The translations under genes were made by a program, and so were the position numbers. From Microbacterium testaceum (lineage in GTDB: Bacteria; Actinomycetota; Actinomycetes; Actinomycetales; Microbacteriaceae), in contig NZ_LDRT01000019.1 in assembly GCF_001476655.1 (NCBI RefSeq), positions 1 to 64,000 of the forward strand: a DNA stretch of 64,000 bases, in the 5' to 3' direction. Under the pieces are notes generated by a model. The model had not been told where the DNA came from. It worked only from the letters and a program-made list of their open reading frames with translations, and did not search any database. Below, piece by piece: positions 13,957-56,798 of the stretch (positions within the stretch are counted from its first letter, which is position 1; every line of letters begins with the position of its first letter).

Positions 13957-14130
13957 ACTGTCTCCGTCGTCGTCATCGGCGTGGTCCTCCGAGTGTCCTC
14001 CGCGGCGGATCCGAGCGCGAGCGCTCCCGCGTCTCCTGGCCATGACGGGCCCTCCGCTCTGCGCCGCGTGTCCACGACACACCGTCCCCACCGGGATGCA
14101 CGTCACCGGACGCGCGGCGGAGAGCGGGGA

Positions 14131-15528
14131 TCAGTCCGTTCCGCGGATGCCCTCGGTCGAGGCGATCACCTGGCGCATCTTCTTCTCGAGCGCCTCGAAG
14201 AACATCGACAGCGGGAACTCGTCGTCCCGCACCGCGTCGGTGTACCCCTTCGGCAGGCCCGCGAGCACGTCGTCGGGCAGCCCGCGTGCCCAGACCGACG
14301 CTGGGTGCGGTGTCACGACCGAGCGCACCAGGTCGTAGGCGGCGAGCCAGTGGGCGGTCTTGGGACGGTCGATCGAGCGCCAGTAGAGCTCGTCGATGGC
14401 GTCAGCGAGAGCGATCACCGCGGCGGGTACTTCGTCCCAGTCGAAGGCGAGCGACGTGTCGGTCCAGTGCAGCACCCGCCGCTGGTGCAGCCAGGCGAAC
14501 AACAGTTGACCTCCGAGGCCGTCGTAGTTGCGCACGCGCGATCCGGTGATGGCGAAGCGGAAGATACGGTCGAAGATCACCGCGTACTGGACGAGCCCGG
14601 CGTGGTCGAGCATGGCCTGCTCAGCGGCATCCAGGTCGTCCCGAGCCGACAGGCGGGCCTGCAGCGCGACGCACTCGCGGAACGCGGTGAGGTCGCAGCG
14701 CAGCTCTTCGAGCGAATAGAGGAAGAACGGCATGCGCTGCTTGATCATGAACGGGTCGAACGGCAGGTCGCCGCGCATGTGGGTGCGGTCGTGGATCAGG
14801 TCCCACATCACGAACGTCTCTTCGGCGAGAACCTGGTCATCGAGCAGCCGTGCGGCGTCGGCGGGGAGTTCGAGCTTGGTGATGTCGGCGGCGGCGCGGG
14901 TGACGCGGCGGTAGCGCGCGGCTTCGCGATCCTGGAAGATCGCGCCCCACGTGAAGGTGGGGATCTCGCGCATGGCCACGGTCTCAGGGAAGAGGACGGC
15001 CGAGTTGGTGTCGTACCCGGGCGTGAAGTCGATCAGTCGCAGCGAGACGAAGAGGCGGTTGGTGTACTCGGTCTCGAGACGAGCGATGAACTCGGGCCAG
15101 ATCGCCTCGACGAGCACCGCCTCGACGTGGCGGTCGCGCGATCCGTTCTGCGTATACATCGGGAAGACGACCAGGTGACGGATGCCGTCGACCCGGTGCT
15201 CCTGGGGCTGGAAGGCCACGAGAGAGTCGAGGAAGTCGGGCACCCCGAGCCCTTCTGCCCTCCACCGGCGGAAATCGGCGGCCGAGGCCTCGAGGTAGGC
15301 GGCATCGTGGGGGAAAAGCGGGGAGAGGGCTTCGATCGCGTCGATGACATCGTCGAGCAGGGGAGCGGCTGCCGACGCGTCGGCGATCGACCCGTCGCTC
15401 GCCTGCAGCTTCTGCAGGGCGATGGTCGCGTTCTTCAGCTGTGCCCACGCGGGGGTGTGCTCGACCTCGGCGACGGTGCGGCCGTCGAGCAACTCGTGTG
15501 CGGTACGGGAAGGCGTCGCGATGGTCAT
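14131..15528 (-). CDS. DUF6421-like protein
   Basis: This 465-residue soluble protein has no signal peptide or membrane segment. Notable stretches are VVFPMYTQNGSRDRHVEAVLVE, VSLRLIDFTPGYDTNSAVLFPE, FVMWDLIHDRTHMRGDLPFDPF and RMPFFLYSLEELRCDLTAF. These look like the actinobacterial DUF6421 family, whose function is unknown. The conserved HDRTHxRGDLPFDPF and ELRCDL segments, rich in His, Asp and Glu, would suit a metal site, but that is inference. A clear CGGAGG precedes the ATG at 15526-15528. It is divergently transcribed from an Lrp/AsnC regulator, so that regulator probably controls it. The family name comes from memory and is only moderately certain. Confidence 0.72.
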   Translation of the reverse strand: MTIATPSRTAHELLDGRTVAEVEHTPAWAQLKNATIALQKLQASDGSIADASAAAPLLDDVIDAIEALSPLFPHDAAYLEASAADFRRWRAEGLGVPDFLDSLVAFQPQEHRVDGIRHLVVFPMYTQNGSRDRHVEAVLVEAIWPEFIARLETEYTNRLFVSLRLIDFTPGYDTNSAVLFPETVAMREIPTFTWGAIFQDREAARYRRVTRAAADITKLELPADAARLLDDQVLAEETFVMWDLIHDRTHMRGDLPFDPFMIKQRMPFFLYSLEELRCDLTAFRECVALQARLSARDDLDAAEQAMLDHAGLVQYAVIFDRIFRFAITGSRVRNYDGLGGQLLFAWLHQRRVLHWTDTSLAFDWDEVPAAVIALADAIDELYWRSIDRPKTAHWLAAYDLVRSVVTPHPASVWARGLPDDVLAGLPKGYTDAVRDDEFPLSMFFEALEKKMRQVIASTEGIRGTD

Positions 15529-41748: not shown

Positions 41749-42885
41749 ATGGCGCAGCGCCTGCCCTCGTCGCCCCCGATCCTTCCCGGGCTCGCTTACA
41801 TCCGCCCCCTCGGGTCGGGCGGTTTCGCGGACGTCTTCCTGTACGGCCAGGACATGCCCCGCCGCGAGGTCGCGGTCAAGGTGCTGCCGAGCGATGTCCG
41901 CGATCCCGACCTGCTGCGGATGTTCAACGCCGAGGCCGACGTCCTCGCGCACCTGTCGGCGCACCCGTCGATCGTCACCGTCTACCAGGCGGGGATCTCG
42001 GCGGACGGACGACCGTACATCGTCATGGAGTACTGCCCCGGCTCGCTCTCCCAGCGCTATCGCGTCGAGCGGATCCCGGTCGCCGAGGTCCTCGCGATCG
42101 GCGTCCGCATGGCGGGAGCGCTCGAGTCGGCGCATCACGCGGGACTCGTGCACCGCGATGTGAAGCCGAGCAACATCCTCATCACCACCTTCGGTGCCCC
42201 TGTGCTCGCCGATTTCGGCATTTCCTCGTCGCTCGTCCGTCAGGACGCCGACGAGATGCTCGCGATGTCCGTTCCGTGGAGCGCGCCGGAGGTCATCGCC
42301 GAGCAGACGGCCGGTACCGTCTCGAGCGAGGTGTGGAGCCTTGGAGCGACGGTCTACTCGCTGCTCGCCGGGCACAGCCCTTTCGAACGTCGGGAGCGCG
42401 GGCAGAACTCTCGCGAGCAGCTGCGCCGCCGCATCGCACGCGCGTCGTACACCGAGATCGCGCGCGCCGACGTCCCGCCCGCCCTGCAGGTGGTGCTCGC
42501 GCGCGCGATGGCGCGCAATCCGCAGGACCGGCACCCCAGCGCGCGCGCCTTCGGCGAGGATCTGCAGCGCGTCCAGACCGAGCTGGGGCTGGCGGCCACG
42601 ACTCTCGAGGTCCCCATGGCCGACTGGTCGCCGTCGGCCCAGGTCGTGGACTTCTCCGATACGGCCCTGCGCGGGCCCACGCGCTCGCGGATCGAGCGCG
42701 AGGGGGCGCGAAAGCTCCGCGACCGTTCCGGGATGACCGGGCTTGCGCGCGACGAGGACACCGACATCTCCGCTCCGGGACCGACGGCTCATCGCATCCT
42801 CCCCTGGGCGCTCGCGGGGGCGACGCTCGTCGCGGCCGGGGCTGTGGCCGTCGCGGCGCTGTACGCGACGGGGGTGCTGCGATGA
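41749..42885 (+). CDS. Membrane Ser/Thr protein kinase
   Basis: This is a 378-residue Hanks-type kinase. The glycine loop is LGSGGFADVF (residues 21-30), the ATP lysine is Lys44 in VAVKVLP, the catalytic loop is HRDVKPSN (135-142), the magnesium loop is DFG (155-157), and the APE motif is in SVPWSAPEVI. A Thr/Ser-rich juxtamembrane region follows (DFSDTALRGPTRSRI, DEDTDISAPGPT). A single membrane helix (about 350-374) sits almost at the C-terminus. There is essentially no extracellular part and no PASTA repeats, so it has no sensor of its own. ATGA overlap couples it to the giant Ig-domain gene. Likely substrates are the FHA and repeat-motif proteins of the same operon. GGGAGG precedes the ATG. 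Confidence 0.95.
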   Translation: MAQRLPSSPPILPGLAYIRPLGSGGFADVFLYGQDMPRREVAVKVLPSDVRDPDLLRMFNAEADVLAHLSAHPSIVTVYQAGISADGRPYIVMEYCPGSLSQRYRVERIPVAEVLAIGVRMAGALESAHHAGLVHRDVKPSNILITTFGAPVLADFGISSSLVRQDADEMLAMSVPWSAPEVIAEQTAGTVSSEVWSLGATVYSLLAGHSPFERRERGQNSREQLRRRIARASYTEIARADVPPALQVVLARAMARNPQDRHPSARAFGEDLQRVQTELGLAATTLEVPMADWSPSAQVVDFSDTALRGPTRSRIEREGARKLRDRSGMTGLARDEDTDISAPGPTAHRILPWALAGATLVAAGAVAVAALYATGVLR

Positions 42886-45800
42886 AGCGGCGGACGATCG
42901 CCGGGCTCGCGGCCACGCTCGCCGCTGCCGCGCTGGTCGTCACGGCGAGCGTCGTCTGGCCCGGACTCGACGCCCAGGAGACGCCCGAGGTCGACACGTC
43001 GGTCTGGGCGCTGCAGACCGGAGAAGGGCAGCGCTACGCGCGGGTGAACACCTCCGTCGGCGAGCTCGATACGGTGCGGTCCGCGGGCAATCCGAGCGAG
43101 GTCGCCCAGAGCGCGGACGGGGCCTATCTCTTCACCGACAGCTACAGCAAGCTCTCACGCATCGACGAGGCGCAGCCCGTCAACCTGCAGGAGGACCAGC
43201 TCGCCGCCGCTCCCGACACCCCGCCCGGGACCACCTCGGTCGCCACCGCCGGGGATTTCGTCGTGTATCGCACCGACACCGGCACGCTCTTCGCCGGGCG
43301 GTTGAGCGAGGCCGGGCAGGCGGCATCCGAACTCGATCCGTTCGGCACCGCCGGGGGCGACGCACCCGCCTACACCGCGGATGCCATCGCCCTCGACGAC
43401 CGGGGGATGCTCTTCGCGTACTCCTCGGCCGACGGATCCGTGATCCGCTATGACATCGCGGCCGACGAGCTGCGCGGGCGCGACCCGGTGACCGCGGACA
43501 TCGCGTCGCCGCTGATCTCGGCTGCGGGGGATGCCTGGGTCCTGGTCGACGCCGAGGCCGGGCGGGTGTGGGTCCGCGGGGCGGATCCGGTGGACATCGC
43601 CGTGGCCGACCAGCTGGTCGTCGCCGCACCGGATTCCCGCGGCGCCATCGTCTACGCCGCCGACGAGCGGTCGCTCTGGGCGATCCCCACCGACGGCTCG
43701 GGACCGCAGCGTGAGGCGGGGGTCGGCGACACGGTGCTCGGACAGCCCGCGAAGCCCCTGTCGCGTGGAGGCGTCGCGTACGCCGCGTGGCTGCTCCCCG
43801 GGGATGCCGGCGGCACGCTGTGGCGCTCCGACGGGGGAGAGACCCCGCTCGACTATGCCGGGGGAACGCTCCCCGATCAGCGTCGCCCCGTGTTCGTCGC
43901 CACCGATCACGCCGTGATCCTGAACGAGACGCGCAGCGGATGGGTGTGGACGGTTCCCAACGGGGCGCTCGTGTCGTCGAGCCAGAACTGGAGCCTCGAC
44001 GATCGGACCGAGCAGGCCGCGGTCCAGAGCGACGAGCAGCTCAGCGTCGTCCTCGACCCGAAGCCCCCGATCGCGGAACCCGACGCGTTCGGTGTCCGAG
44101 CGGGCCGTCTGGTCACCCTCCCCGTGCTCCTGAACGATCACGATCCGAACGAAGACGTCCTGAGCATCGTCGGCGAGAGCGTCACCGGTCTCGATCCCGG
44201 GTTCGGCGAACTGAGCCTGACCGACGACAACCAGCGACTCACCGTTCGCGTCCGCCCGGAGGCGACCGGCACGGCGACCTTCTCGTACGCGGTGACCGAC
44301 GGTACGACGCCCGACGGGCTGACCTCGGCTCCGACGACGGTGACCCTCACGGTATCGCCGGAGACCAGCAACGCCGCTCCCGTGTGGTGCGGGGTCGAGA
44401 AGTGTCTGCAGCCGTGGCCGACTCCGGAGGTCGCACGCGGGGGGACGATCACGGTTCCCGTCCTCCCGGGCTGGGTCGATCCCGACGGCGATCCTCTGCT
44501 CCTGCTGTCCGTCGACAACCCCGGCGGCGTGGGCAGCGTCACCTCGACGCCCGCCGGAGAAGTCGTCTACCAGCACGCCGACGACGGGTCGGGTGGCGAG
44601 CAGACCATCCAGCTCGACGTCACGGTGGCCGACACGGCCGGGGCCGTGACCACCAAGCCGCTGCTCATCCGCGTCGCGCCCGACCCGAAGCTCGCCGTGC
44701 AGTCGTTCGCGGTGGTCGACACGGTGGGCTCCGGCCTCACCGTCGATGTCGGGCCGCACGTCACCGGGACAGCGGGCGCCATCTCGCTCAGCTCGGTCCG
44801 CGTGCTCGACGACGCGGCGGCGACGGCCGGCGTCGTCGGTGGGAGCACGACCTTCGACTTCAGCGCCTCCCAGCCCGGGGTGTATCGGGTCGATTTCACC
44901 GTCTCGGACGGGGGAAGGGATGCCACGGGAACCGCCCGCATCACCCTCCTGGCGGCCGATGCGCCCGCTCAGTTGGCCACCGCTCCCGTCGTGGCCTTCG
45001 TCCGGCCGCAGGAGGACGCGACACTCGACGTGTTCTCCGCCGTGTCGAACCCCACGGGCCGGGTGCTCCTGTTGAGCGACGTCGTGGCCGCCGCGCAGGA
45101 GGGAGCGTCGCTCAGCGTCGACACCGTCGGCCAGAACGACCTCCGCGTCTCGGGAAGCACCGCCGGGGGAGAGGCGGGTCTGCTGGGGACGGTGACCTAC
45201 AGCGTGAGCGACGGCACCGAAGACGAAGGCGCGCGGGTCTCCGGCGAAGCGACGGTCTACCTGCTTCCCCCGGCCCCCGAGATCGCCCCGATCGCGGTCG
45301 ATGACACCGTCACCGTCCGTGCCGGAGCGCAGGTCGACATCCCCGTGCTCGACAACGACGTGTCGCCCGCCGGCGGACGACCCACACTCGATCCCGCCAG
45401 CGTGAGCGCCCAGCCCGCGAGCGACGCTCTGGCCTTCGCCTCGGGCGGAGTGCTGCGTTACCTCGCCCCGACCGCACCCGGATCGTACGAGGTGACGTAC
45501 CGCGTGTACACCACCGGAGCCCCCTCGCTGTGGGACGAGGCGACGGTCCACATCACCGTGCTCGGCAACGACGCCAACCGGCCACCGGTGCCCGACACCC
45601 TCCAGGGGCGGGTGTTGAGCGGAGGGACCACCACGATTCCCTTCCGCAGCTTCGGGGTCGACCCGGACGGCGACGCGGTGACGCTCGATCGGATCGTGTC
45701 GCAGCCCGATCGGGGCAGCGCGGCGATCTCTCCCGACGGGCTCTCGATCGTCTATTCGTCCGTGCCGGGCGACCGCGGCCAGGTGTCGTTCCGTTACCGT

Positions 45801-48800
45801 GTGGCGGACACGGCCGGAGCCACGGGCGAGGGCACGGTGCGGATCGGCGTCCTCGACGCCGAGGCGAACCCGAGCCCGATCACGTTCACCGACTACGTCC
45901 AGGTGCAGGCGGGGGCGGACAGTCGGCTTCGCGTGAGCCCGCTCGCGAACGACATCGATCCGACCCAGGGGCGACTCACCCTCACCGGGGTGCGCCCCGA
46001 TCTTCCGCAGACCCTCGCCGACGGCGACGACAACCCCGAGTACGCGCGGCTGGCGGAACGCGTCGAATCGGTCTCCGACACCGGAGTGGTCATCCGTGCG
46101 GGCGATGCCCCCGCGACGATGTCGTTCCTCTACGACGTGGCATCCGACTCGGGGAACACCGGACGGGGGCTCATCGTCGTCAAGGTCGTGCGCGAGAGCG
46201 TGCCCGACTACCCGGTGGTGGCCGATACGGCGCTCACCGTCGAGGACCGGGACGACTTCACCACGGGTGTCGACGTGATCGAGGGGCGTGCCACCTGGTC
46301 GGGCGGCGACGTGAGCGACCTCCGGGTCTCGCTCTGGGGCGATCCCACGGACGTCCGTCTCGACGGGCGACGCCTCTCCGGCGACCTTCCGGCCACCCGC
46401 CGCATCATCCCCTTCGCCGTCACGGGCACGGTCAACGGTTCCGAGGTCACGACCTACGCCTTCCTCCGCGTCCCGGGCGACGCCGACGTGACGCTCGCCC
46501 TCCGCCCGAACGCGGCGCAGCGCGTCGACGAGTTGGCGTCGGTCGAGTTCGACATGGCATCCCTGGTCGCCGTCCCTCGCCGGGCGACCCTCGAGGTCGG
46601 AACAGAGGCCACCACGAGCGGTGCGCGTGCCGAGGCGCGCTGCACGATCGCGGGCACCCGGGTGACGTACGACGCCGGAACCGGATCGCCGTGGAGCGAC
46701 GTGTGCACGGTCCCCGTGCGCATCGCGGGGACGCAGGAGTGGACGCTCCTGTCGGTTCCGATCGGTGTGGTGGCGCGCAACCCGCAGCCCGAGCTGCGGC
46801 CCGGATCCCTCACGGTCGGGCCGGGCGAGACCGCGACGTTCGATCTGCGCAACATGACCTCGTGGCAGCTCGGCCGCGAGGACGGGAACGGCATCCGCTA
46901 CGCGCTCGACTACTCCGGCTCGGCGTTCTCCGCAGTCACCCTCGAGGGATCGACCGTCACCGTCACGGGTGCCGATCGCGCAGTCCCGGGAACCGAGAAC
47001 GCGGCGATCATCACGGTCACGAGCCACAACGCCGTCGCCCCCGCCCGTCTCGTGCTGCGGGTGGGCGCGGCACCGTCGACCCTCCCGCAGGGAGGAACGA
47101 TGTCGCGGCAGTGCTCGCAGGCGAACGGGTCGTCGTGCCCGATCGAGGTGGTCGGCGCCGATGGAGAGGTCAACCCCCTCCCGCGCACGCCGCTCGAGGT
47201 CGTGAGCGTGCGCCCCACGGGAACGTGCACCGGTGTGAGTTTCGCGGTCGCCTCAGCGTCGAGCATCGCCGCCTCGTGGACGAGCGACGCCCCGGGTGCG
47301 ACCTGCGCGGCGAGCGTGACGCTGCGCGATGCCCAGGGCCGCGCCACCGCAGGTCCCCGCGACGCCCGCGTGGTGCTCGACCTGCAGGGGTACCCGCGGG
47401 CCCCCGCGAGCGTGCGTCAGTCCGCGTACGCCGACGGCTCCGTCACCCTCCGCGTCGATGCGGGCGAGGCGCGGCGCGCCTACCCGGGTCTCTCCGGTTT
47501 CCTCGTGCGCTACCGCGGTGACGTCGTCGCCCAGTGCGCGCCCGACGGCGGTTGCCCCACGATCGCCGCCCCGAACGGCGACCAGCGGGAGTACGTCGTG
47601 ACGGCCGTCAACGACGTCGGCGAGTCGCGCGGTTCGGTGCGCACGACGGCGTGGGCCTACGACCCGCCCCCGCGTCCCGACAGTGCGGACTGGACGCCGA
47701 CCGTGACCGACGACGGCTCCGGAAACGTCGTGGACATCACCGTCCGGGGAGTGGATGCCGCCGAGACCGGCTCCCTCGAGATCCGCAGCAGCACGGGCGA
47801 GACGCAGACCGTCTCGGTGGGACGCAACCAGCAGGACGTGCCGATCAAGGGCTTCCGGGTCGGGAGCAACTCCTCGACCGAGGTCCGGGTCACCCCGCGG
47901 TCCCGTTTCGACGTCCCCCCGGGGCTGGGCGGCACCGTCGAGGGCGGCGTCCTGACGTTCCGCGCCCACGGCGTCGGCAAGCCGACAGGCCTCGACCTCA
48001 CCCTCACCTCGCGTGCCGCCTCGGACGGTTCGACGACGATCGTGGCGCAGGCCACGGCCAGCCCGAACGGCACCGATTCCGACCTTCGTTTCGGGATCAT
48101 GGAGGGGACGAGCTGCCGTACGGGAGACGGCGGGTCGCGCCGCGAGTTCCCCGGGAAGAAGGACGGCGAGGAGTACACCTTCACGGCCTGCGTCGACTCC
48201 GTCTACCAGGGCAAGACGTACGGCTCCGCCGATCCGCTGACCAAGCCGCACCGCGTCGATCAGGACCGCGCCGCCCCGCGGGGGTACACGTTCCGCGTGA
48301 ACGCCGACCCGATCCTCGACCAGGACAACGGCCGCGCGATCGCGCGTTGGCGCCTCAACGAGGAAATCGAGCCCGGGAACAAGCCGCCGAACAACAACGA
48401 CGTGTTCTACACGAACTTCAACAACAAGCGGTCGAGCGTCTTCGACAGCGACCCCGACATCGGGGTCTACTTCGAGCACACGTTCTGGGGCACGACATCC
48501 GAGGTCGGTCGCGTGACCCCCGCCGACGGCAGCGCGCCCTACCAGGTGCAGGCGTCCGCCAGCATCCGATCGTGTGTCGCCGGCGACGCACTCGACATCT
48601 CGAAGAGCTCCAGCAACGACAAGGCCGCCATGAAGGGCGACAGTTCCACCGCCGTGTTCCGCGACGGCCAGGGCAACAAACTGCCGCGCCCCGACGGCGA
48701 CGACCGCGTCCCGGTCGGCGCGAAGAGCGTCGAGAACGTCACGGTCACGGTCGACTGGTCGGCGCAGGGGTGGGGACTGAACGGTACGACGCTCACACTG

Positions 48801-48839
48801 TCCGGCACCTGCTCGCCCGGCACCTCCACGAACCCCTGA
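42882..48839 (+). CDS. Giant multi-domain exported protein (beta-propeller-like, Ig-like and FN3 domains)
   Basis: The 1985-residue protein begins with a signal-anchor (about residues 7-28, LAATLAAAALVVTASVVWPG). Residues 40-385 have repeated short strand patterns such as YSSADGSVIRYDIAADELRG that suggest a beta-propeller. From residue 392 to about 1300 come about eight Ig/cadherin-like units, several opening with a P-x-A/V-D-D...V-L-L-N-D-x-D signature (LPVLLNDHDPNED, IPVLDNDVSPAGG, VSPLANDIDPTQG). Fibronectin type III-like units occupy roughly 1500-1800, and a cysteine-containing domain closes the protein. There is no sortase signal or C-terminal membrane helix. It is probably displayed outside the membrane, held by its N-terminal anchor, acting as the extracellular arm of the kinase operon. 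Confidence 0.88.
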   Translation: MKRRTIAGLAATLAAAALVVTASVVWPGLDAQETPEVDTSVWALQTGEGQRYARVNTSVGELDTVRSAGNPSEVAQSADGAYLFTDSYSKLSRIDEAQPVNLQEDQLAAAPDTPPGTTSVATAGDFVVYRTDTGTLFAGRLSEAGQAASELDPFGTAGGDAPAYTADAIALDDRGMLFAYSSADGSVIRYDIAADELRGRDPVTADIASPLISAAGDAWVLVDAEAGRVWVRGADPVDIAVADQLVVAAPDSRGAIVYAADERSLWAIPTDGSGPQREAGVGDTVLGQPAKPLSRGGVAYAAWLLPGDAGGTLWRSDGGETPLDYAGGTLPDQRRPVFVATDHAVILNETRSGWVWTVPNGALVSSSQNWSLDDRTEQAAVQSDEQLSVVLDPKPPIAEPDAFGVRAGRLVTLPVLLNDHDPNEDVLSIVGESVTGLDPGFGELSLTDDNQRLTVRVRPEATGTATFSYAVTDGTTPDGLTSAPTTVTLTVSPETSNAAPVWCGVEKCLQPWPTPEVARGGTITVPVLPGWVDPDGDPLLLLSVDNPGGVGSVTSTPAGEVVYQHADDGSGGEQTIQLDVTVADTAGAVTTKPLLIRVAPDPKLAVQSFAVVDTVGSGLTVDVGPHVTGTAGAISLSSVRVLDDAAATAGVVGGSTTFDFSASQPGVYRVDFTVSDGGRDATGTARITLLAADAPAQLATAPVVAFVRPQEDATLDVFSAVSNPTGRVLLLSDVVAAAQEGASLSVDTVGQNDLRVSGSTAGGEAGLLGTVTYSVSDGTEDEGARVSGEATVYLLPPAPEIAPIAVDDTVTVRAGAQVDIPVLDNDVSPAGGRPTLDPASVSAQPASDALAFASGGVLRYLAPTAPGSYEVTYRVYTTGAPSLWDEATVHITVLGNDANRPPVPDTLQGRVLSGGTTTIPFRSFGVDPDGDAVTLDRIVSQPDRGSAAISPDGLSIVYSSVPGDRGQVSFRYRVADTAGATGEGTVRIGVLDAEANPSPITFTDYVQVQAGADSRLRVSPLANDIDPTQGRLTLTGVRPDLPQTLADGDDNPEYARLAERVESVSDTGVVIRAGDAPATMSFLYDVASDSGNTGRGLIVVKVVRESVPDYPVVADTALTVEDRDDFTTGVDVIEGRATWSGGDVSDLRVSLWGDPTDVRLDGRRLSGDLPATRRIIPFAVTGTVNGSEVTTYAFLRVPGDADVTLALRPNAAQRVDELASVEFDMASLVAVPRRATLEVGTEATTSGARAEARCTIAGTRVTYDAGTGSPWSDVCTVPVRIAGTQEWTLLSVPIGVVARNPQPELRPGSLTVGPGETATFDLRNMTSWQLGREDGNGIRYALDYSGSAFSAVTLEGSTVTVTGADRAVPGTENAAIITVTSHNAVAPARLVLRVGAAPSTLPQGGTMSRQCSQANGSSCPIEVVGADGEVNPLPRTPLEVVSVRPTGTCTGVSFAVASASSIAASWTSDAPGATCAASVTLRDAQGRATAGPRDARVVLDLQGYPRAPASVRQSAYADGSVTLRVDAGEARRAYPGLSGFLVRYRGDVVAQCAPDGGCPTIAAPNGDQREYVVTAVNDVGESRGSVRTTAWAYDPPPRPDSADWTPTVTDDGSGNVVDITVRGVDAAETGSLEIRSSTGETQTVSVGRNQQDVPIKGFRVGSNSSTEVRVTPRSRFDVPPGLGGTVEGGVLTFRAHGVGKPTGLDLTLTSRAASDGSTTIVAQATASPNGTDSDLRFGIMEGTSCRTGDGGSRREFPGKKDGEEYTFTACVDSVYQGKTYGSADPLTKPHRVDQDRAAPRGYTFRVNADPILDQDNGRAIARWRLNEEIEPGNKPPNNNDVFYTNFNNKRSSVFDSDPDIGVYFEHTFWGTTSEVGRVTPADGSAPYQVQASASIRSCVAGDALDISKSSSNDKAAMKGDSSTAVFRDGQGNKLPRPDGDDRVPVGAKSVENVTVTVDWSAQGWGLNGTTLTLSGTCSPGTSTNP

Positions 48840-48903: not shown

Positions 48904-49878
48904 ATGACGATCACCCAGGAGCAGGCCACCTGGTTCGCGCAGACGTTCTCGCAGATCGCCGACAACGTCGAGCGCGCCGTGCTCGGCAAACGGCACGTGG
49001 TCGAGCTGGTGCTGACCGCGATGCTCAGCGACGGTCACGTCCTCCTCGAAGACGTCCCGGGCACGGGCAAGACCTCCCTGGCCCGCGCGGTCGCCCAGTC
49101 GGTCCAGGGCACGAACACCCGCATCCAGTTCACCCCCGACCTGCTCCCGGGCGACATCACCGGCATCACCGTCTACGACCAGAAGACCGGTCGCTTCGAG
49201 TTCCACGCCGGGCCGATCTTCGCCAACATCGTCCTGGCCGACGAGATCAACCGAGCGAGCCCCAAGACGCAGTCGGCGCTGCTCGAGGTCATGGAAGAAG
49301 GGCGCGTCACGATCGACGGCGTCTCGCGCGAGGTGGGCGTCCCCTTCCTCGTCCTGGCGACGCAGAACCCTGTGGAACAGGCCGGAACGTACCGCCTCCC
49401 CGAGGCCCAGCTCGACCGCTTCCTCCTGCGGACCTCGCTCGGCTATCCCGACCATGCGGCGACGGTGCGCATCCTCGACGGAGCCGCCATCGCGACCGCC
49501 GACCTGCGCCCGATCGTCACGCCTCACGCGCTCGTCGGCATGGCGGATCTCGCGGCGACCGTGTACGTCGACGCGCTCGTCCTCGACTACATCGCCCGAC
49601 TCGTGGATGCCACCCGCTCCGCCGACGAGGTCCGCCTCGGCGTCAGCATCCGCGGGGCGCTCGCGCTCACCCGGGCCACGCGCTCCCGCGCCGCCGCGCA
49701 GGGACGCACCTACGCCACCCCCGACGACGTCAAGGCGCTCGCCGTGGCGGTGCTCTCGCACCGGCTCATCCTGCACCCCGAGGCCGAGTTCGACGGCGTG
49801 ACGGCCGAGGCGGTCATCGGTCAGGTGCTCCTCGATGTCGCCCCGCCGACGCAGCGCGAGAGCGAACGCGCGCGATGA
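48904..49878 (+). CDS. MoxR-family AAA+ ATPase
   Basis: This is a 324-residue cytosolic AAA+ ATPase. Walker A is PGTGKTSLA (Lys56), Walker B is IVLADEINRASPKTQ (Asp113-Glu114), sensor 1 is LVLATQNPVEQAGTYRLPEAQLDRFLL, and the arginine-containing C-terminal region is SIRGALALTRATRSRAAAQGR. MoxR ATPases work as chaperones for metal insertion or assembly of larger complexes, nearly always next to a DUF58 or VWA gene as here. AGAGAGA precedes the ATG at 48904. A 64-bp gap with two GGCATCC motifs separates it from the Ig-domain gene. The DUF58 partner follows 25 bp later. Confidence 0.95.
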   Translation: MTITQEQATWFAQTFSQIADNVERAVLGKRHVVELVLTAMLSDGHVLLEDVPGTGKTSLARAVAQSVQGTNTRIQFTPDLLPGDITGITVYDQKTGRFEFHAGPIFANIVLADEINRASPKTQSALLEVMEEGRVTIDGVSREVGVPFLVLATQNPVEQAGTYRLPEAQLDRFLLRTSLGYPDHAATVRILDGAAIATADLRPIVTPHALVGMADLAATVYVDALVLDYIARLVDATRSADEVRLGVSIRGALALTRATRSRAAAQGRTYATPDDVKALAVAVLSHRLILHPEAEFDGVTAEAVIGQVLLDVAPPTQRESERAR

Positions 49879-49903
49879 CGACCCTCCTCCCCGGGATCCC
49901 TCG

Positions 49904-51280
49904 ATGCCCGACGTGAACGTCACCGAGTCGCGGCTGACACGGACCTCCGCAGGCACCGTCGGTACCGGCTCGCGGACCTCGATCACCTCCACGTCGACGC
50001 GCCGCGCCCGGCGGATCGTGCGCGCGGTCGTGCGCGCCGCCGAAGCCTGGCGCGCGACGAGCGAGGCCGTTCTCACCGCCTCGCGTTGGGCGGGCCGCAC
50101 CGTGCGACCGGCGGGAGCGGTCGTGACGATCGCCGCGACCGCGGGCCTCATCGCCGGGCTCGTCTTCGGGTGGGTGGAGTGGATGGTCGCCGGGAGCGCC
50201 TCCCTCCTGCTCCTGATCATGAGCGTGCCGTTCCTCTTCGGCTCCCGTGCCTACGCGGTCGACCTGACGCTCGCGCGCGAGCGCGTCGTCGCCGGGCACG
50301 GAGTGACGGGCGAGATCATCGTCCGCAACGAGAGCGCGCGCGTCGCTCTTCCGGGACGCCTCGACATCCCCGTGGGATCGGGGCTCGTGGAATTCGGCGT
50401 GCCGTTCCTGCGCCCCGGACACAGCGTCACCGAGACGCTCGAGATCCCGCCCCTGCCACGGGGCGTCGTGACGGTGGGGCCTGTCACGACGGTGCGGAGC
50501 GACCCGATCGGACTGCTGCGGCGAGAGCACGCCTTCGACGACGAGAACGAGTTGTTCGTCCACCCCCGTACGGTGCCGCTGCCGTCGACGAGCGCCGGTC
50601 TCGTGCGCGACCTCGAGGGCAACGCGAGTCGTCGTCTCGTCGACGCCGACATGTCGTTCCACGCGATCCGCGAGTACGCCCCCGGTGACTCGCAGCGCCA
50701 GGTGCACTGGAAGTCCACGGCGAAGACCGGCCGCCTGATGGTGCGTCAGTACGAGGAGTCCCTCCGCTCCCGGATGGCCGTCGTCCTCGGCGCCGCGTCG
50801 CAGGAGTACCTCGACGCCGACGAGTACGAGCTCGCCGTGTCCGCCGCGGCTTCCCTGGGCCTGCGGGCCGTCCGTGACGCGCGCGACATCGACATCGTCA
50901 CGGGCTCCGAGATCCCGCGCGTGGTGAAAGGGAGACTGCGCGCGATCCGCCGTATCCCGACCGTCACCCCGCGACAGATGCTCGACGGGTTCAGCGCCCT
51001 CGAGCGCTCCGACAACACCATGTCGGTGTCGGACGTCTGCCGCTTGGCATCCGAATCCAACGAACGGCTCTCGATCGCGTTCATCGTCGTCGGCTCCCGC
51101 GTGCCCCTCGCGCGCGTGCGACAGGCGGCGCTCGCCTTCCCCGTCGACACCGCCGTGGCGGCCGTCGTGTGCGACGAACGCGCGCACCCGCGCATGCAGA
51201 GCATCGCCGGGCTGACGGTGCTGACCATCGGCACCCTCGACGACCTGTCCGGACTCCTCGTGCGTGGAGCGACATCGTGA
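49904..51280 (+). CDS. DUF58 domain protein, MoxR partner
   Basis: This is a 458-residue protein. After a basic, Ser/Thr-rich N-terminus there are two membrane segments (about residues 65-105, AGAVVTIAATAGLIAGLVFGW and SASLLLLIMSVPFLFG). A beta-rich extracytoplasmic-type domain follows, then the DUF58 core with the signature IREYAPGDSQRQVHWKSTAK and GRLMVRQYEESLRSR near residue 280. DUF58 proteins are found with MoxR ATPases and transglutaminase-like proteins, and are thought to be assembly targets or co-chaperones. The ATG at 49904 is preferred over an upstream extension that overlaps moxR. The stop overlaps the next start (GTGA). Confidence 0.9.
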   Translation: MPDVNVTESRLTRTSAGTVGTGSRTSITSTSTRRARRIVRAVVRAAEAWRATSEAVLTASRWAGRTVRPAGAVVTIAATAGLIAGLVFGWVEWMVAGSASLLLLIMSVPFLFGSRAYAVDLTLARERVVAGHGVTGEIIVRNESARVALPGRLDIPVGSGLVEFGVPFLRPGHSVTETLEIPPLPRGVVTVGPVTTVRSDPIGLLRREHAFDDENELFVHPRTVPLPSTSAGLVRDLEGNASRRLVDADMSFHAIREYAPGDSQRQVHWKSTAKTGRLMVRQYEESLRSRMAVVLGAASQEYLDADEYELAVSAAASLGLRAVRDARDIDIVTGSEIPRVVKGRLRAIRRIPTVTPRQMLDGFSALERSDNTMSVSDVCRLASESNERLSIAFIVVGSRVPLARVRQAALAFPVDTAVAAVVCDERAHPRMQSIAGLTVLTIGTLDDLSGLLVRGATS

Positions 51281-53751
51281 CGGCGGACAGACACCCCGGT
51301 CGCGTCGTGGCGGGAGCGTCGTACACGGCGTCGGCGGTCGCGATCGCCGCGGTCGCCGCGTGGCCCATCTACGCGTCATGGTCGTTCGTCGTTCTCGTGG
51401 TCTCGTCGGCCGTTGCCGCGGCCCTGATCGTGACGCTGGTGACCTGGCGCCGGTGGGGCGGGTGGATCACGGCCGCCGCCACCGCCGCGGCGTTCCTGGT
51501 CCTGTGCGTGCCTCTGGCGGTCCCGTCGCGACTCGGGGGACCGCTCGAGATCCTCCGCGGTGTCGGCGAGGCCTCGGCCGGGGTGCTCGTCGCGTGGAAA
51601 GACCTCGTCACCGTGGACCTGCCGGTGGGTGCCTACCGCAATCTGCTCGTCCCCGCGCTCGTGGTCTTCCTCGTCGGGGCGGTGACGACCCTCTCCCTCG
51701 CCCAGCGAGCCGATCGGCGGTCGGCGGGTGCCGTGGTGAGCGCGCTGCTGATGACGGGCTTCGGCCTGTTCTTCGGCCGCACCTCGCCCAGCGCCCCGCT
51801 CGTCTGGGGGCCCGTGTCGATCCCGGCGCCGGTGGAGACCGCCGTGGGACTCGCCGCTCTGCTCTCCGCGGTCCTCTGGCTCGCCTGGCGCGCGCACGAT
51901 GAGAGGACCCGATCCCTCCGACGTACGAGTGCGCTCGCCGTGTCGCCGACCGCGCGGCGCTCCCGAACGGACCGTCGCCGCGCCCTCACCGGAGCCGGAA
52001 TGATCCTCGTGGCGGCATTGGTGACCGTCGCCGTCGTCCCCTGGGCGGCCGGCGATGCCGACCGCCGCGTCCTCCGCTCTGCCACCGGTCCGGAGCGTCA
52101 GATCGCCGAGGCGGTCAGCCCGCTGTCCGAGTACCGGGCGATGTTCTCCGACTCCCGGGTCGAGGACGTGCTGTTCCGCGTGAGCGGGGAGGGAGCGCTG
52201 CCGGACCGCATCCGCGTGGCCACCCTCGACTCCTACGACGGCGAGATCTTCCGTTCGTCGGGCACGGGGGAGGGGCGGTTCGTCCGCGTCCCCTCCCCGC
52301 TCCCGGTGACAGACGGTCGAGCCGTCGACGCCGAGGTCGAGATCGGCGACCTCGGCGGGATCTGGATGCCGACGGCGGGGAGCCTCGTCCACGCCGCCTT
52401 CGCGGGGGACCGGCCGAATCAGCTGGCCGATCGGTTCTACTACAGCGCCGCCGCCGAGGCCGGTGTGCAGATCGCGGACGGCGGCCTCGTCCCGGGCGAT
52501 CGCTATCGGCTGACGGCGATCGAGCCGGCCGCTCGTGACCTCGCGACGCTCTCCGCCCCCGGTGCCCCCGCGGGGGTCTCCGGCGGGGAGAATCTGCGCC
52601 GCTGGGTCGACGAGCACAAGACAGGGGACGGCGGAGCCGCCCTGGCCACGCTCGTGCAGCTGCTGCGCGAACGCGGGTACCTCAGCCACGGGCTCGCGCC
52701 ATCCGCGGGTTCTGCCGCGCCCCGGTGGGCGACTGACCTCGCCGGGTACCAGGTGCAGCCGAGCGCGTCCGGGCATTCTCTTGCGCGCATCGAGACGATG
52801 TTCCAGCGCCTCCTCGACAGGGAGGACGACCCCCGAGCAGTGGCATCCGGGAACTATGTCGCCGCCGTCGGCGACGACGAGCAGTTCGCCGTCGCCACGT
52901 CGCTCATCGCGCGTCAGCTGGGCTTCCCGTCGCGCGTCGTGGTCGGGACGCGGCTCACCTCCGCCGATCCCGACCTGCCGACGTGCGAGGCCGGAGAATG
53001 CCGCGCCGGCGACCTGAGCGCGTGGACCGAGGTGCAGGGGGCCGACGGGAGCTGGACGCCGATCGACGTGACCCCGCAGCACGAGCAGTCCCCGAGCCTC
53101 GAAGTGACCGAACAGCGCGATCCCGAGAACGTCACCGAGGTGCGGCCCGACACGGTCGACGAGGTCGTGCCTCCCGCTCCCGTGCAGGAGGACAACACGC
53201 TCACCGACGAGGAACGCGCCGCCGACGGTCTCGACCTCGCCTGGCTGTGGCCGATCCTCCGGGTCGCGGGCCTGTCCCTGCTCGTCGTCCTCGTGCTCTT
53301 CGGTCCGTTCCTCGCGGTCGTGATCGCCAAGGCGATCCGCCGACGCGGCCGCCGTCGCGATCCGGACCCGCGCGCGGCGATCGCCGGCGGCTGGGAGGAG
53401 TACGTGGATGCCGGCGTCGATTCCGGCCGCGAGCTCCCCCCGTCTTCCACGCGTCGCGAACTCGCGGCGGCGCTCGGAACGGACGGCGGTCCGCATCTCG
53501 CGGACGAAGCCGATCGCGCGGTGTTCTCCTCCCGGACGGTCACCACCGACGAGGCCGCGGCCTTCTGGCGCATCGTCGACACCGAACGCCGGAGTCTCGC
53601 GCGTCAGCGCGGCGGATGGCGGCGACTGCTCGCGGCCGTATCGTTGAGATCGTTCCTGCGGTTCCTCGCCCCGCGTCCCACGCGCCGACGGCCGCCGCAC
53701 CGCGACGAGAGGGGAAAGCGCCCGGCCCGACGGCGGCGCGACACGACATGA
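51277..53751 (+). CDS. Membrane transglutaminase-fold protein lacking the catalytic Cys and His
   Basis: The 824-residue protein has five or six membrane segments in the first 250 residues, an extracytoplasmic region with a transglutaminase-like core, another membrane segment (about 670-690) and a cytosolic, Arg-rich C-terminal part. The core has the usual frame but not the active site. Where active members have G-x-C-E-x-F-A, this one reads GDDEQFA (Asp534 in place of Cys). Where they have HAW, it reads SAW (Ser581). The third residue, Asp597 in TPIDVTP, remains. GFPSRVVVGTRL is retained as a structural motif. It is therefore probably a structural or binding protein, not an enzyme. Both ends overlap neighbouring genes (GTGA and ATGA). 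Confidence 0.88.
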   Translation: MTADRHPGRVVAGASYTASAVAIAAVAAWPIYASWSFVVLVVSSAVAAALIVTLVTWRRWGGWITAAATAAAFLVLCVPLAVPSRLGGPLEILRGVGEASAGVLVAWKDLVTVDLPVGAYRNLLVPALVVFLVGAVTTLSLAQRADRRSAGAVVSALLMTGFGLFFGRTSPSAPLVWGPVSIPAPVETAVGLAALLSAVLWLAWRAHDERTRSLRRTSALAVSPTARRSRTDRRRALTGAGMILVAALVTVAVVPWAAGDADRRVLRSATGPERQIAEAVSPLSEYRAMFSDSRVEDVLFRVSGEGALPDRIRVATLDSYDGEIFRSSGTGEGRFVRVPSPLPVTDGRAVDAEVEIGDLGGIWMPTAGSLVHAAFAGDRPNQLADRFYYSAAAEAGVQIADGGLVPGDRYRLTAIEPAARDLATLSAPGAPAGVSGGENLRRWVDEHKTGDGGAALATLVQLLRERGYLSHGLAPSAGSAAPRWATDLAGYQVQPSASGHSLARIETMFQRLLDREDDPRAVASGNYVAAVGDDEQFAVATSLIARQLGFPSRVVVGTRLTSADPDLPTCEAGECRAGDLSAWTEVQGADGSWTPIDVTPQHEQSPSLEVTEQRDPENVTEVRPDTVDEVVPPAPVQEDNTLTDEERAADGLDLAWLWPILRVAGLSLLVVLVLFGPFLAVVIAKAIRRRGRRRDPDPRAAIAGGWEEYVDAGVDSGRELPPSSTRRELAAALGTDGGPHLADEADRAVFSSRTVTTDEAAAFWRIVDTERRSLARQRGGWRRLLAAVSLRSFLRFLAPRPTRRRPPHRDERGKRPARRRRDTT

Positions 53752-55289
53752 ACGACTCCACGGGCGTCATCCTCGGCCTGTCCACCGCGGTCCTCTTCGT
53801 CATCCTGTACGTCTGGTACGCCCTCGCGCTGTCGGCCCTCTTCGCCAAGGCGGGGGAGAAGTCGTGGAAGGCGTGGGTTCCGCTGGTGAACCTCGGCACG
53901 ATTCTCAAGCTCGGCGGGTTCTCCCCCTGGCTCGTCCTCCTCAACCTCGTTCCGCTGTTCGGGGGGATCGCTTTCGTCATCGTCTTCATCGTGGCGGTGC
54001 ACCGCATCAGCGAGGGGTTCGACCGCGGGGCCGGCACGACGGTGCTCGGCGTGGTGCTCCAGGTCGTCTGGGCCAGTGTGCTGGGCTTCGGCTCGGCGCG
54101 CTGGGCGGGTTCGGATGCATCCGGGTCGCGCACGATGGACGAGAACTCCGCCCCCGTGCGCCGGGGTCAGGACTTCGACGGCCCGTACGTTCCCTTGGTC
54201 GGCGGGTGGACGCCGGAGCCTCCCGCGCCCGCCGACGCCGAGCCCTCCTCGGAGCCGGTCGTGCTCCCGTTCGCGGCTCCCTCGGGTTCTCTCGCCGACG
54301 CGGTCCCGTCCGCTGTGGACTGGGCCCCGTCCCGCAGCGGGGACGCGTCGCCGCCGTACGATGCGCGTCCTCCTCGTCCCGAGGACAGGAATCCGGATGC
54401 CACGCCGCCGACGTCCGTGTTCGATGTTCTCGACGCTCTGCGCGCCGAGGCGGAAGAGCCCGGTACTCGCCGGAGCGCCGCCGAGCCGGCCCCCGCTGTC
54501 TCGGACGCCGAAGACAACGGCTTCCAGCCCACGGTTCCTCTGACGCCGGGGCTTCCCCTGCGCGGTCGAGGCGTCCCCGTGGCGTCGACGGGCGCGACGG
54601 AGGCCGAGGACACCCCCGCGCCGGAATCCCCGGCCGTCTCGGAGCCCGAGCCCTGGACGCCCCCGCGCCGCGCCACCGCGCCCGCCCCGGTCGACGAGGT
54701 GCCGCTCACCCGTCCCGCCGTCGATCCGGACCCCGCGGCGGAGTCGGCCACGTCCGCACCGCCTCCCGAGGCAGAGGAGTTCCCCGAGCTCTCCGAGGCG
54801 GTCTCGGCGGTTTCGGGTGCGCCGGATGCCGGAGCCCCGCGGTCCGCGCGCACGTCGGTCGCCGCGCTCTACACGCAGCCGGAGTTCGCTCCCGGTCGGG
54901 ATGCGGACGACGACCTCGAGGCGCTCGACCGGACCGTCGTGGCGCGCCGGCGTCGCATCCCCTGGGCGCTGGTCCCGCCCAGCGGCGATCCCGTCGAGCT
55001 CACGTCCTCCGTCGTCATCGTGGGACGACGGCCCGCGGCGGACGGGGCGTTCCCCGATGCGCAGCTCATCGCGATCACGGACGAGACGCGAACGGTCTCC
55101 AAGACGCACGCGCGTCTGCAGCTGCGCGGCGACACCTGGTTCGTGACCGATTTGGACTCGACCAACGGCGTCCTCTTCGCGACCCTCATGGGCACCGAGA
55201 TCGAGGCGCCTCCGGGGGAGGAGATCGAAGCCGGTGAGCGGTTCTTCCTCGGAGACGCGGAGGTGCGCCTGTCACGGAGGGATGCGTGA
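53748..55289 (+). CDS. DUF5684 membrane domain fused to an FHA domain
   Basis: This is a 513-residue protein. Residues 1-120 form a DUF5684-like unit with three or four membrane segments, including AGEKSWKAWVPLVNLGTILKLGG and LVLLNLVPLFGGIAFVIVFIVAVHRIS. A disordered Pro/Glu/Ala-rich stretch of about 280 residues follows, then DRTVVARRRR and a C-terminal FHA domain (about 410-510) with GRRP, the phosphothreonine-binding SKTHARL (near residue 451) and DSTNG. FHA domains bind phosphothreonine, so this is the expected reader of the operon's kinase. The DRTVV motif just before the domain could be an autoinhibitory phosphosite, as in GarA/OdhI-type proteins. Both ends overlap their neighbours. Confidence 0.9.
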   Translation: MNDSTGVILGLSTAVLFVILYVWYALALSALFAKAGEKSWKAWVPLVNLGTILKLGGFSPWLVLLNLVPLFGGIAFVIVFIVAVHRISEGFDRGAGTTVLGVVLQVVWASVLGFGSARWAGSDASGSRTMDENSAPVRRGQDFDGPYVPLVGGWTPEPPAPADAEPSSEPVVLPFAAPSGSLADAVPSAVDWAPSRSGDASPPYDARPPRPEDRNPDATPPTSVFDVLDALRAEAEEPGTRRSAAEPAPAVSDAEDNGFQPTVPLTPGLPLRGRGVPVASTGATEAEDTPAPESPAVSEPEPWTPPRRATAPAPVDEVPLTRPAVDPDPAAESATSAPPPEAEEFPELSEAVSAVSGAPDAGAPRSARTSVAALYTQPEFAPGRDADDDLEALDRTVVARRRRIPWALVPPSGDPVELTSSVVIVGRRPAADGAFPDAQLIAITDETRTVSKTHARLQLRGDTWFVTDLDSTNGVLFATLMGTEIEAPPGEEIEAGERFFLGDAEVRLSRRDA

Positions 55290-56068
55290 GCGGCTCCGAC
55301 GACAAGCCCGACGATCCCGAGGACGTCACCCTGTGGGCGGGGCGTCTGCGCGCCTGGCCCGCGGCACCCGTCCCGTCGACGGCCAGAGATGACGGAGAGT
55401 CGGACGGGAACGTGGACGCGACCCTCATCGCGCGACGCCGGGGCCCGGGCCGCGGTCCGCGGCGAGAAGACGACGCTCCCGAGGGCGAGGGGGACATCGA
55501 CGACACCGCGCCGGGTGGGCGTCCACCGAACGACGTGACCGTCCGCTCGTCGCGCAGGGGACAGGGCCCGGCGGAGCGGGTCGAGGACAGCGCCGTCGAG
55601 ACCGACATCACCGTCCGCTCGGTGCGCGAGGGCGGGAGTGAGAAGCCCGCGGAACACGTCCTCGACGACACCACGACCGCCGCTCGCCGCGTCGGCGGGC
55701 CCGCGGAGCCCCTTTCGGCTACGGCTCCCGGTCGTCGCCGGGCGTCCCGCGCGGGCGCGCATCCCGAAGGGGGGGCCGAGACCGCGCCCCGAGAACCGCG
55801 AGTCGAGCCCACGCCCCGCGGTGACGCCCCTGCGCGGACGGTGCGCGTCCCCGGCGAGGAGACCGCGGAGGCCTACGGTCCGCGCGCCGACGAAGCAGTC
55901 CGCGTGCATCGCAACGTGCCGCCGCCGAGGATGGACCCCGATCGCGATGCCTCCCTCGTGCGCCCGAAGGGGGCACGCCGCGGGGTGGCCGCCCCGCTCG
56001 TCATCGGGGGAACGACCATCGTCGTCCTCGCCGGGGCGCTCGCCGCGTTCGTCCTGCTGGCCCGCTGA
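55286..56068 (+). CDS. Tail-anchored disordered protein with repeated D-x-T-hydrophobic motifs
   Basis: This is a 260-residue protein from a GTG overlapping the FHA gene stop. Residues 1-233 are hydrophilic and disordered. The last 25 residues ([27 protein letters not shown]) form a membrane helix, so the body is cytosolic. Within the disordered part a motif recurs: DVTL (Thr15), DATLI (Thr46), DVTVR (Thr85), DITVR (Thr109) and DASLVR (Ser223). Weaker forms are IDDTA (Thr74), LDDTT (Thr129) and RTVRV (Thr185). The same motif (DRTVV) precedes the FHA domain encoded upstream. Such acidic-Thr-hydrophobic sites are typical kinase and FHA targets, so this may be a multivalent phospho-docking hub. 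No known family is recognised. Confidence 0.8.
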
Positions 56069-56119
56069 CCCGGGCGACGGGGCCGAGCGACCGTCCGCAC
56101 CCGTGAGGTCGCCGCACGT

Positions 56120-56149
56120 TTGCCCGGACACCCGAAGAACACGTATCAT
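56120..56149 (+). promoter_or_regulatory. Candidate promoter of the str operon
   Basis: TTGCCC (56120-56125) and TATCAT (56144-56149) are 18 bp apart. Transcription would start near 56157, leaving a leader of about 270 nt before rpsL. The 361-bp stretch from 56069 to 56429 holds no gene; it contains this promoter and the leader hairpin at 56232-56249. Confidence 0.55.
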
Positions 56150-56231
56150 TGATCGGGTGTGCGTTCACGCGCGCCGTGCGTCATGCCTCCGGGTAGGACA
56201 TGCGGATCAACGCTCGCACCATCTCAGGGAT

Positions 56232-56249
56232 CGACCTGCGAACAGGTCG
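56232..56249 (+). promoter_or_regulatory. Hairpin in the rpsL leader
   Basis: A perfect 7-bp stem (CGACCTG at 56232-56238 with CAGGTCG at 56243-56249) is closed by the loop CGAA in the predicted long 5' leader of the str operon. Ribosomal-protein leaders often fold to bind a regulatory protein, but this hairpin does not match an autoregulation site I know. Confidence 0.45.
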
Positions 56250-56429
56250 CCCCCACGGCATATCCACCACGAACCGCGTCCGATCATTCTGGCGCGCGGT
56301 GGATCACACGTGAGCCCGACACGTCACGAATCGCAAGATGCGCGACATGACGGGGGAGACACGACCGCTGTCACCGTGCAGCACCCCGGACGGCCCGAGA
56401 GGAACCGCCCGGCCAAACAAGGAGAGAAC

Positions 56430-56798
56430 GTGCCAACCATTCAGCAGTTGGTTCGCAAGGGCCGCTCGCCGAAGGTCTCGAAGACCAAGGCTCCCGCGCT
56501 GAAGTCGAACCCCCAGCAGGCCGGCGTGTGCACCCGCGTGTACACCACGACCCCCAAGAAGCCGAACTCGGCCATGCGCAAGGTCGCCCGCGTGAAGCTG
56601 CGCAACGGCACCGAGGTCACCGCCTACATCCCCGGCGAGGGCCACAACCTGCAGGAGCACTCGCTCGTGCTCGTCCGCGGTGGTCGCGTCAAGGACCTCC
56701 CCGGTGTCCGTTACAAGATCGTCCGCGGTGCGCTCGACACCCAGGCTGTCAAGAACCGTAAGCAGGCTCGTAGCCGCTACGGCGCGAAGAAGGGCTGA
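56430..56798 (+). CDS. rpsL: 30S ribosomal protein S12 (uS12)
   Basis: The product is 122 residues from a GTG at 56430, preceded by AGGAGAG. It forms part of the decoding centre. [12 protein letters not shown] with Lys43 and the later [10 protein letters not shown] with Lys88 are both the streptomycin-sensitive wild-type residues. First gene of the classical str operon, followed 5 bp later by rpsG. Its leader is unusually long. The frame is open upstream, but the S12 family begins at [12 protein letters not shown]. Confidence 0.98.

Follow-up and report, generated by a model that had tools for sequence, protein, structure and literature searches.

In Bifidobacterium, the PFNA cluster comprises the genes pkb2, fn3, aaa-atp, duf58 and tgm, with some species also carrying prpC, BLGT_RS02790 and fha, and its kinase Pkb2 is reported to phosphorylate the MoxR protein (available portion of PMC8430577). 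The same five core genes, in the same order, are found in the stretch of DNA analysed here, 64,000 nucleotides of Microbacterium testaceum (NCBI RefSeq assembly GCF_001476655.1, contig NZ_LDRT01000019.1, positions 1 to 64,000; hereafter the window), in an operon that we term PFNA-like, its host being Microbacterium and not Bifidobacterium. A kinase and an FHA protein are present in both clusters, and the PFNA cluster also includes a phosphatase. The operon of the window closes with one more gene, whose product, termed here the array protein, is absent from the description of the PFNA cluster in that portion of PMC8430577. The array protein has a C-terminal membrane anchor, and proteins of its family carry repeated copies of a phosphosite-like motif that resembles one borne by the operon's FHA protein shortly before its own FHA domain. 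We propose that the array protein would act as a membrane-anchored platform that this FHA domain reads when the copies are phosphorylated.

Described FHA systems offer partial likenesses. GarA, OdhI and DgcB resemble the FHA protein of the window in having a threonine site upstream of the FHA domain, with an acidic residue at -2 and hydrophobic residues after the threonine (available portion of PMC6733907), and in the PDB the FHA profile used here matches GarA, OdhI and, for DgcB, the entries 6hbz, 6hc0 and 6hc1. They differ in that copies of the site here also stand on a separate membrane protein and the FHA protein is itself embedded in the membrane; binding of the site by its own protein is carried over to the window only by analogy. 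Human MDC1, read by NBS1, presents many equal phosphosites in one segment to one kinase and an FHA reader (as set out in the accessible text of PMC8079451), as the array would. Many equal sites are likewise a property of the array family, whereas the motif (pSer-Asp-pThr in MDC1), the kinase, the place and the ancestry all differ; no sequence relation is claimed, and the array sites are known here from sequence. In human TIFA, as in the FHA protein of the window, a threonine lies shortly before the FHA domain, and in TIFA it is phosphorylated and read by the FHA domain of another molecule; the part of PMC7083832 available describes no separate array protein. Searches of the open-licence literature returned no bacterial protein with many copies of a partner FHA protein's own site, and no papers on DUF5684 or on the combination of Microbacteriaceae, FHA domain and MoxR. 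A mycobacterial phosphosite motif was sought in PMC4389566, the available portion of which yielded none of use. Relative to the bacterial FHA systems in the literature searched, the comparison suggests that what is new is a separate membrane protein with many copies of the reader's site, as against one site on the reader.

The array protein and its family

The array of sites is real in the family. Array proteins were collected from 65 Microbacterium loci (L038–L102) taken around the FHA gene, the array gene being called by its position after the FHA stop codon and by a hydrophobic C terminus, with no use of the motif. Once a spurious open reading frame (L071) and duplicates (L051 and L064) had been dropped, 47 distinct proteins remained, or 48 with that of the window. 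The 81 distinct sites of FHA proteins served to derive a site model covering positions -3 to +6, which was applied, at a cut-off of 6 bits, to the array proteins minus their last 28 residues. The 48 proteins contain 152 model sites, against a mean of 1.75 and a maximum of 6 in 200 shuffles; as controls, the linkers of 94 FHA proteins gave 1 site (shuffle mean 0.77) and seven other proteins of the window gave none (shuffle mean 1.27). When the set is extended to 70 proteins, 254 sites are found (shuffle mean 2.85), a figure that is partly circular because 22 of the 70 were chosen wholly or partly by the motif; the array protein of L137, recognised later, lies outside this set. By a looser rule, Microbacterium proteins carry 0–12 copies each (median 3; window 3), and the 22 motif-selected proteins, which come from other genera, carry 3–15. 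The median spacing between copies is 19 residues.

Aligned near relatives share the motif threonine at 278 of 316 positions, as against 451 of 866 for other threonines, and the aspartate at -2 at 208 of 261, as against 650 of 1138 for other aspartates; these counts come from nine hand-chosen groups with pairs counted in both directions, and the aligner may pair non-orthologous copies. An earlier note on this DNA had expected the motifs to persist among orthologues and had named change in their number or position as evidence to the contrary. Number and position do vary, so that taken literally the contrary outcome is what we find; the motif itself persists, and for that reason the variation is read as array turnover.

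The window protein shows the pattern D-x-[TS]-[LVI] at residues 13, 44, 83, 107 and 221, where the earlier note had placed it, and none of 10,000 composition shuffles (mean 0.34) reaches five; the threonine-only pattern [DE]-x-T-[VIL] occurs four times (shuffle mean 0.34, p = 0.0002). The sites are not equal, as had been supposed. Those of Thr46, Thr85 and Thr109 are array sites, and all are threonine in the three aligned near relatives (L063, L038 and L039), the flanks of Thr85 differing in two of the three. Thr15 belongs instead to an N-terminal box, VT[LI]W, present in 21 of the 48 Microbacterium array proteins, and the position of Ser223 is Thr or Ser in none of the three relatives. Under the first model derived from FHA proteins, Thr46 scores 16.1 bits, Thr129 5.3 and Thr85 4.9. 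Because the window protein by itself has just one strong site, the strength of the case for an array rests on the relatives; in terms of its sites, it is a weak representative of a strong family.

The reading frame and coordinates of the array gene (table 1) agree with those first proposed. Its start overlaps the stop of the FHA gene by 4 nucleotides, with GGAGGGA just upstream, and the same 4-nucleotide overlap begins 44 of the 47 distinct Microbacterium array genes. Pfam and NCBIfam (E 0.01) and PADLOC all gave no match for the protein, whose body consists of 15% R, 13% A, 12.5% P, 11% G and 10% D, with no F or C. The tail anchor that had been suggested is borne out by a hydrophobic helix near the very end of the chain. 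In the 12 residues preceding this helix there are four R or K and one D or E, and because of this positive excess the body should be cytoplasmic, which would place the array on the same side as the kinase domain. All 70 array proteins have five residues or fewer after the helix, their most hydrophobic segment being C-terminal and no comparable segment occurring in the body, and 69 of the 70 have a positive excess just before the helix; the set was chosen in part for a hydrophobic C terminus, but not for tail length or charge. A single C-terminal helix, a very short tail and a body predicted to be cytoplasmic together characterise the family as tail-anchored, with topology deduced from these features. 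The hosts of array proteins are soil and plant bacteria.

The FHA protein, its own site and the operon

The DRTVV motif that had been noticed before the neighbouring FHA domain is real. Across 118 FHA proteins (that of the window plus one per locus, L038–L154, two pairs being the same gene), one such site per protein lies upstream of the FHA domain in 107, by a permissive rule that takes an acidic residue or Gly, any residue, Thr and a hydrophobic residue, 50–60 residues before the S of the S-x-x-H motif. In 87 of the 107 the distance is 53, 54 or 55 residues, and by the same rule the site is missing in 11 (L105, L110, L111, L121, L132, L133, L141, L142, L144, L147 and L148). The 81 distinct sites have D (77%) or E (20%) at -2, V or I (87%) at +1, I or V (82%) at +2, A, V, S or T (99%) at +3 and R (86%) at +5. 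The site threonine is invariant, together with G63, R64, S88, H91, N110 and G111, across 27 aligned FHA sequences that were mostly picked for having the site; the first FHA profile (A1) likewise excluded FHA proteins without it. The FHA protein was matched (E 1e-8) in 104 of 119 genomes of the window's genus, its own genome included. In the window it has a DUF5684 part with about three hydrophobic segments, and the FHA proteins of L107 and L115 show none. AlphaFold models of the FHA region and site (window and L038–L042) had a mean pLDDT of 38.7 and a pTM of 0.26, and no structural claim is drawn from them.

Within Microbacterium, the array gene goes with the operon. The kinase was seen in 46 of the 65 loci, two of which reach the contig end after the FHA gene (L046 and L058); in the 44 with intact downstream sequence, the array gene is present in 41 and absent from three (L091, L096 and L099), as against none of ten loci without the operon. 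In nine further loci the sequence stops short of the kinase's place, and eight of these have the array gene while the ninth (L068) ends within it. The ten operon-less loci (L055, L061, L071, L080, L092, L095, L097, L100, L101 and L102) keep the FHA gene, beside rpsL in nine, and have no matches to the kinase, giant, MoxR, DUF58 or TgpA proteins and no array gene. Because these kinase-less loci lack every operon protein searched, the array gene's link is with the whole operon, and a specific link between kinase and array is rejected. In L153, a Microbacterium locus added later, the operon is present, about 250 bp separate the FHA gene from rpsL and there is no array gene. At L091, the 1198 bp from the FHA stop to rpsL are repetitive DNA, none of whose three forward frames is open for an array protein; this is perhaps a decayed or replaced array gene.

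It might have been expected that the site of the FHA protein disappears along with the operon. This is ruled out, the site threonine being kept in all ten operon-less loci, and the site must for that reason serve beyond the operon. We infer that the FHA protein of such loci would be an orphan reader served by another kinase.

Between genera, changes in the array appear to accompany changes in the FHA site. Arrays have T-V-I-V-D-R or T-T-V-V-D-R alongside an FHA site of T-V-V-V-D-R (L106 and L109, with L107 and L116 similar); in Microbacterium, where the FHA site is T-V-V-T-R-R or T-I-I-A-R-R, T-V-L-S-x-R is common in the array; and in L137 the FHA-side sequence DDDHTVIASRR is paired with DDDHTVMSTRR in the array. 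Over 69 loci, the BLOSUM likeness at +1 to +5 is 1.91 for own pairs and 1.58 for swapped ones, a match reached in 0 of 5000 permutations. With one locus from each of 13 genera the match is reached in 102 to 846 of 20,000 permutations, depending on the g10 representative, and with 12 genera of the family in 483 of 20,000. The co-variation is called suggestive because shared ancestry is not removed from these tests.

Neighbouring genes and other lineages

The operon runs on one strand, 5′ to 3′, from the kinase through the giant Ig/fibronectin-like, MoxR, DUF58, TgpA-like and FHA proteins to the array protein, whose gene is the last of the run; rpsL is next, at 56430 (table 1). A 4-nucleotide overlap with the preceding gene is possible at the starts of the TgpA, FHA and array genes. 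A scan of positions 55900–56500 found no terminator-like site and a single promoter-like site, at 56120, on which no claim is built.

Table 1. Features of the PFNA-like operon in the window and of its array and FHA proteins.
Feature	Position	Strand	Remark
Array protein, 260 residues, C-terminal membrane anchor	55286..56068	+	GTG start 55286, stop 56066-56068
N-terminal box DVTLW (Thr15)	55322..55336	+	Clade-conserved; not an array site
Array site 1, DATLIARRR (Thr46)	55415..55441	+	Of the array sites, closest to that of the FHA protein
Array site 2, DVTVRSSRR (Thr85)	55532..55558	+	Motif and alignment
Array site 3, DITVRSVRE (Thr109)	55604..55630	+	Motif and alignment
Weaker site, DDTTTAARR (Thr129)	55664..55690	+	Retained in 2/3 near relatives
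DASLVR (Ser223; context DASLVRP)	55946..55963	+	Thr/Ser in 0/3 near relatives
C-terminal membrane helix, residues 233-259	55982..56062	+	Hydrophobic segment; one residue follows
FHA protein, with a DUF5684 membrane part, then a linker, its phosphosite-like motif and a C-terminal FHA domain	53748..55289	+	Pfam
FHA protein's own site, DRTVVARRRR	54927..54956	+	Thr codon 54933-54935
FHA domain, residues 423-477	55014..55178	+	Pfam E 1.5e-7; G-R, S-x-x-H and N-G present
PknB-like kinase	41749..42885	+	C-terminal anchor; HRDVKPSN and DFG both intact; RDEDT site of its own ahead of the helix
Giant extracellular Ig/fibronectin-like protein	42885..48839	+	Start approximate
MoxR-type AAA ATPase	48904..49878	+	Pfam match
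DUF58 protein	49835..51280	+	Pfam match; coordinate is the frame start, not necessarily the true start
TgpA-like transglutaminase-core membrane protein	51277..53751	+	Start inferred from 4-nucleotide overlap

All 46 Microbacterium kinases have HRD[VI]KPSN and DFG. Like the array protein, the kinase has a helix a few residues from its C-terminal end, and R-[DE]-E-D-T stands before the helix in 39 of the 46 (window, L043–L099), possibly as an autophosphorylation or FHA docking site. A reading of the operon as a defence system was dropped: PADLOC matched the kinase alone (34 models, best PD-T4-6), apart from weak matches of MoxR (TRIP13 and DolB), and gave no matches for the array, FHA, DUF58 and TgpA proteins.

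Outside Microbacterium, 20 loci of other genera within the family were covered, and 11 of them have an array protein in the same operon (L103, L106, L107, L109, L112, L113 and L115–L119). The order is FHA, PP2C, array in eight of the 11; PP2C stands elsewhere in the order in L113 and L118, and there is none in L115. A PP2C signature scan of the 65 Microbacterium loci gave one match (L081), apparently in the wrong frame. An order-wide search added 32 loci, 12 of them with an array: L131 and L134, of the same family, and 10 of the 13 loci of family f10. In family f4, the FHA site reads W-D-x-T-V-L-S in four of six loci.

The C-terminal tails of PP2C proteins in L137, L152 and L138 bear array-like sites (DDDTVASSRR, EDTTPSSRRR and repeated DTAPR). 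The full cluster, in the PFNA gene order, occurs without an array in L145, where the gene between the phosphatase and FHA genes is not an array. Repeat modules resembling NPRCYPGL or NPSCYPAL are found near the PP2C and FHA genes in L145 (reverse complement, 13770–14372) and L114 (reverse complement, from 16191), and the repeat-module protein of L145 occupies the place of the seventh, unexplained gene of PFNA clusters.

A proposed phosphothreonine platform and its rivals

The reading we favour, with a probability of about 0.57, is that the array protein serves as a multivalent platform of phosphothreonines anchored in the membrane, which the FHA domain of the operon reads and which competes with the FHA protein's own site. 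The operon kinase would phosphorylate the threonine in D-x-T-[VI]-[VIL]-[AST]-x-R-R, both at the FHA-side site and in the array copies. The phosphorylated site would be bound by the FHA domain, as its intact binding residues and the examples of GarA, OdhI and DgcB suggest. Phosphorylated arrays would then draw FHA domains away from the site of their own or a neighbouring molecule and tether several of them at the membrane, giving a switch graded by copy number; competition is proposed in view of the likeness between the copies and the site beside the FHA domain. Resetting the platform would fall to a PP2C phosphatase, whose gene lies within the cluster in most array-bearing sister genera.

The earlier note had pictured the array as clustering the FHA protein at the membrane when the kinase is active. 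The match between array and FHA site agrees with this, as do their tendency to co-vary between genera and the association of the array gene with the kinase operon. Recruitment to the membrane cannot, however, be the array's general job, because the FHA protein of the window is itself a membrane protein and needs none; competition and clustering can still be its jobs, and it may also release the FHA protein. That interpretation is, overall, partly supported.

Several findings weigh against the favoured reading. The window protein has one strong copy (at 6 bits it has 1 site where 0.03 are expected, a count equalled by the highest of 100 shuffles). Copy number is not conserved, some orthologues having 0 or 1 copies, and the motif arginine, identical at 386 of 492 positions, hardly exceeds other arginines (1145 of 1555). 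Operons without an array gene occur in Microbacterium (L091, L096, L099 and L153) and elsewhere in the family (L108, L111, L114, L121 and L122); these, together with the retention of the site by FHA genes outside the operon, mean that the FHA protein has partners besides the array protein. The arrays of L103, L117 and L123 are unlike their own FHA sites at +1 to +3, and the permutation test leaves relatedness in.

The main rival is a kinase sink or buffer, in which the array, as a substrate with many sites, would delay phosphorylation of the site beside the FHA domain or set a threshold for it, with no binding by that domain. We consider it unlikely, and rank it first among the rivals because a kinase preference shared by both kinds of site could by itself produce their likeness and their co-variation; variable copy number also fits a buffer. 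Against it, the differences common to site and array, V or S/T/A at +3, fall where FHA domains usually read (DgcB at +3; available portion of PMC6733907), although an effect of the kinase may also account for them. It is improbable that the array is read by another protein, for instance the kinase or a different FHA protein, so that the likeness to the neighbouring FHA site would reflect the kinase only. Such a reader would agree with the persistence of the FHA site where operon and array are lost, and another FHA-profile match in the genome of the window (G000:C27:26310-26630, E 3.3e-18), a second FHA region, is a possible further reader of the array; the location of the array gene directly after the FHA gene, usually with the 4-nucleotide overlap, speaks for the neighbour instead. 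That the array is an artefact of composition and duplication, a repetitive, fast-drifting and disordered tail without function in which D-x-T-V arises from GC-rich codons and tandem duplication, is very improbable: some arrays do contain near-identical repeats indicative of tandem duplication (L042, L065 and L112) and only repetitive DNA stands in the array's place at L091, but sites greatly exceed the shuffles, control linkers lie at background, the threonine codons of the copies differ (ACG 93, ACC 90, ACA 3 and ACT 1) and arrays of other genera retain the pattern with different letters.

Beyond the favoured platform, a more speculative idea, doubtful in our estimation, draws on the analogy with TIFA. 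The own phosphosite-like threonine of the FHA protein lies about 10 residues before its FHA domain, perhaps too near for it to fold back. FHA proteins might instead chain head to tail, as in TIFA, in a phosphorylation-switched membrane assembly that the array, with up to 15 copies, would nucleate, cross-link or cap. Such an assembly would be a two-dimensional condensate sized by fast-changing copy number, and might have evolved by the copying of a regulatory site out of its reader. If true, it would be a bacterial counterpart of the MDC1-NBS1 and TIFA platforms.

For the family, the arrays offer a natural valency series, from 0 to 15 copies, for testing multivalency in a bacterial phospho-switch, and their copies are natural peptide variants for the study of FHA specificity. 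The array protein would also provide a first mechanistic handle on the kinase–MoxR–DUF58–TgpA clusters of actinobacteria.

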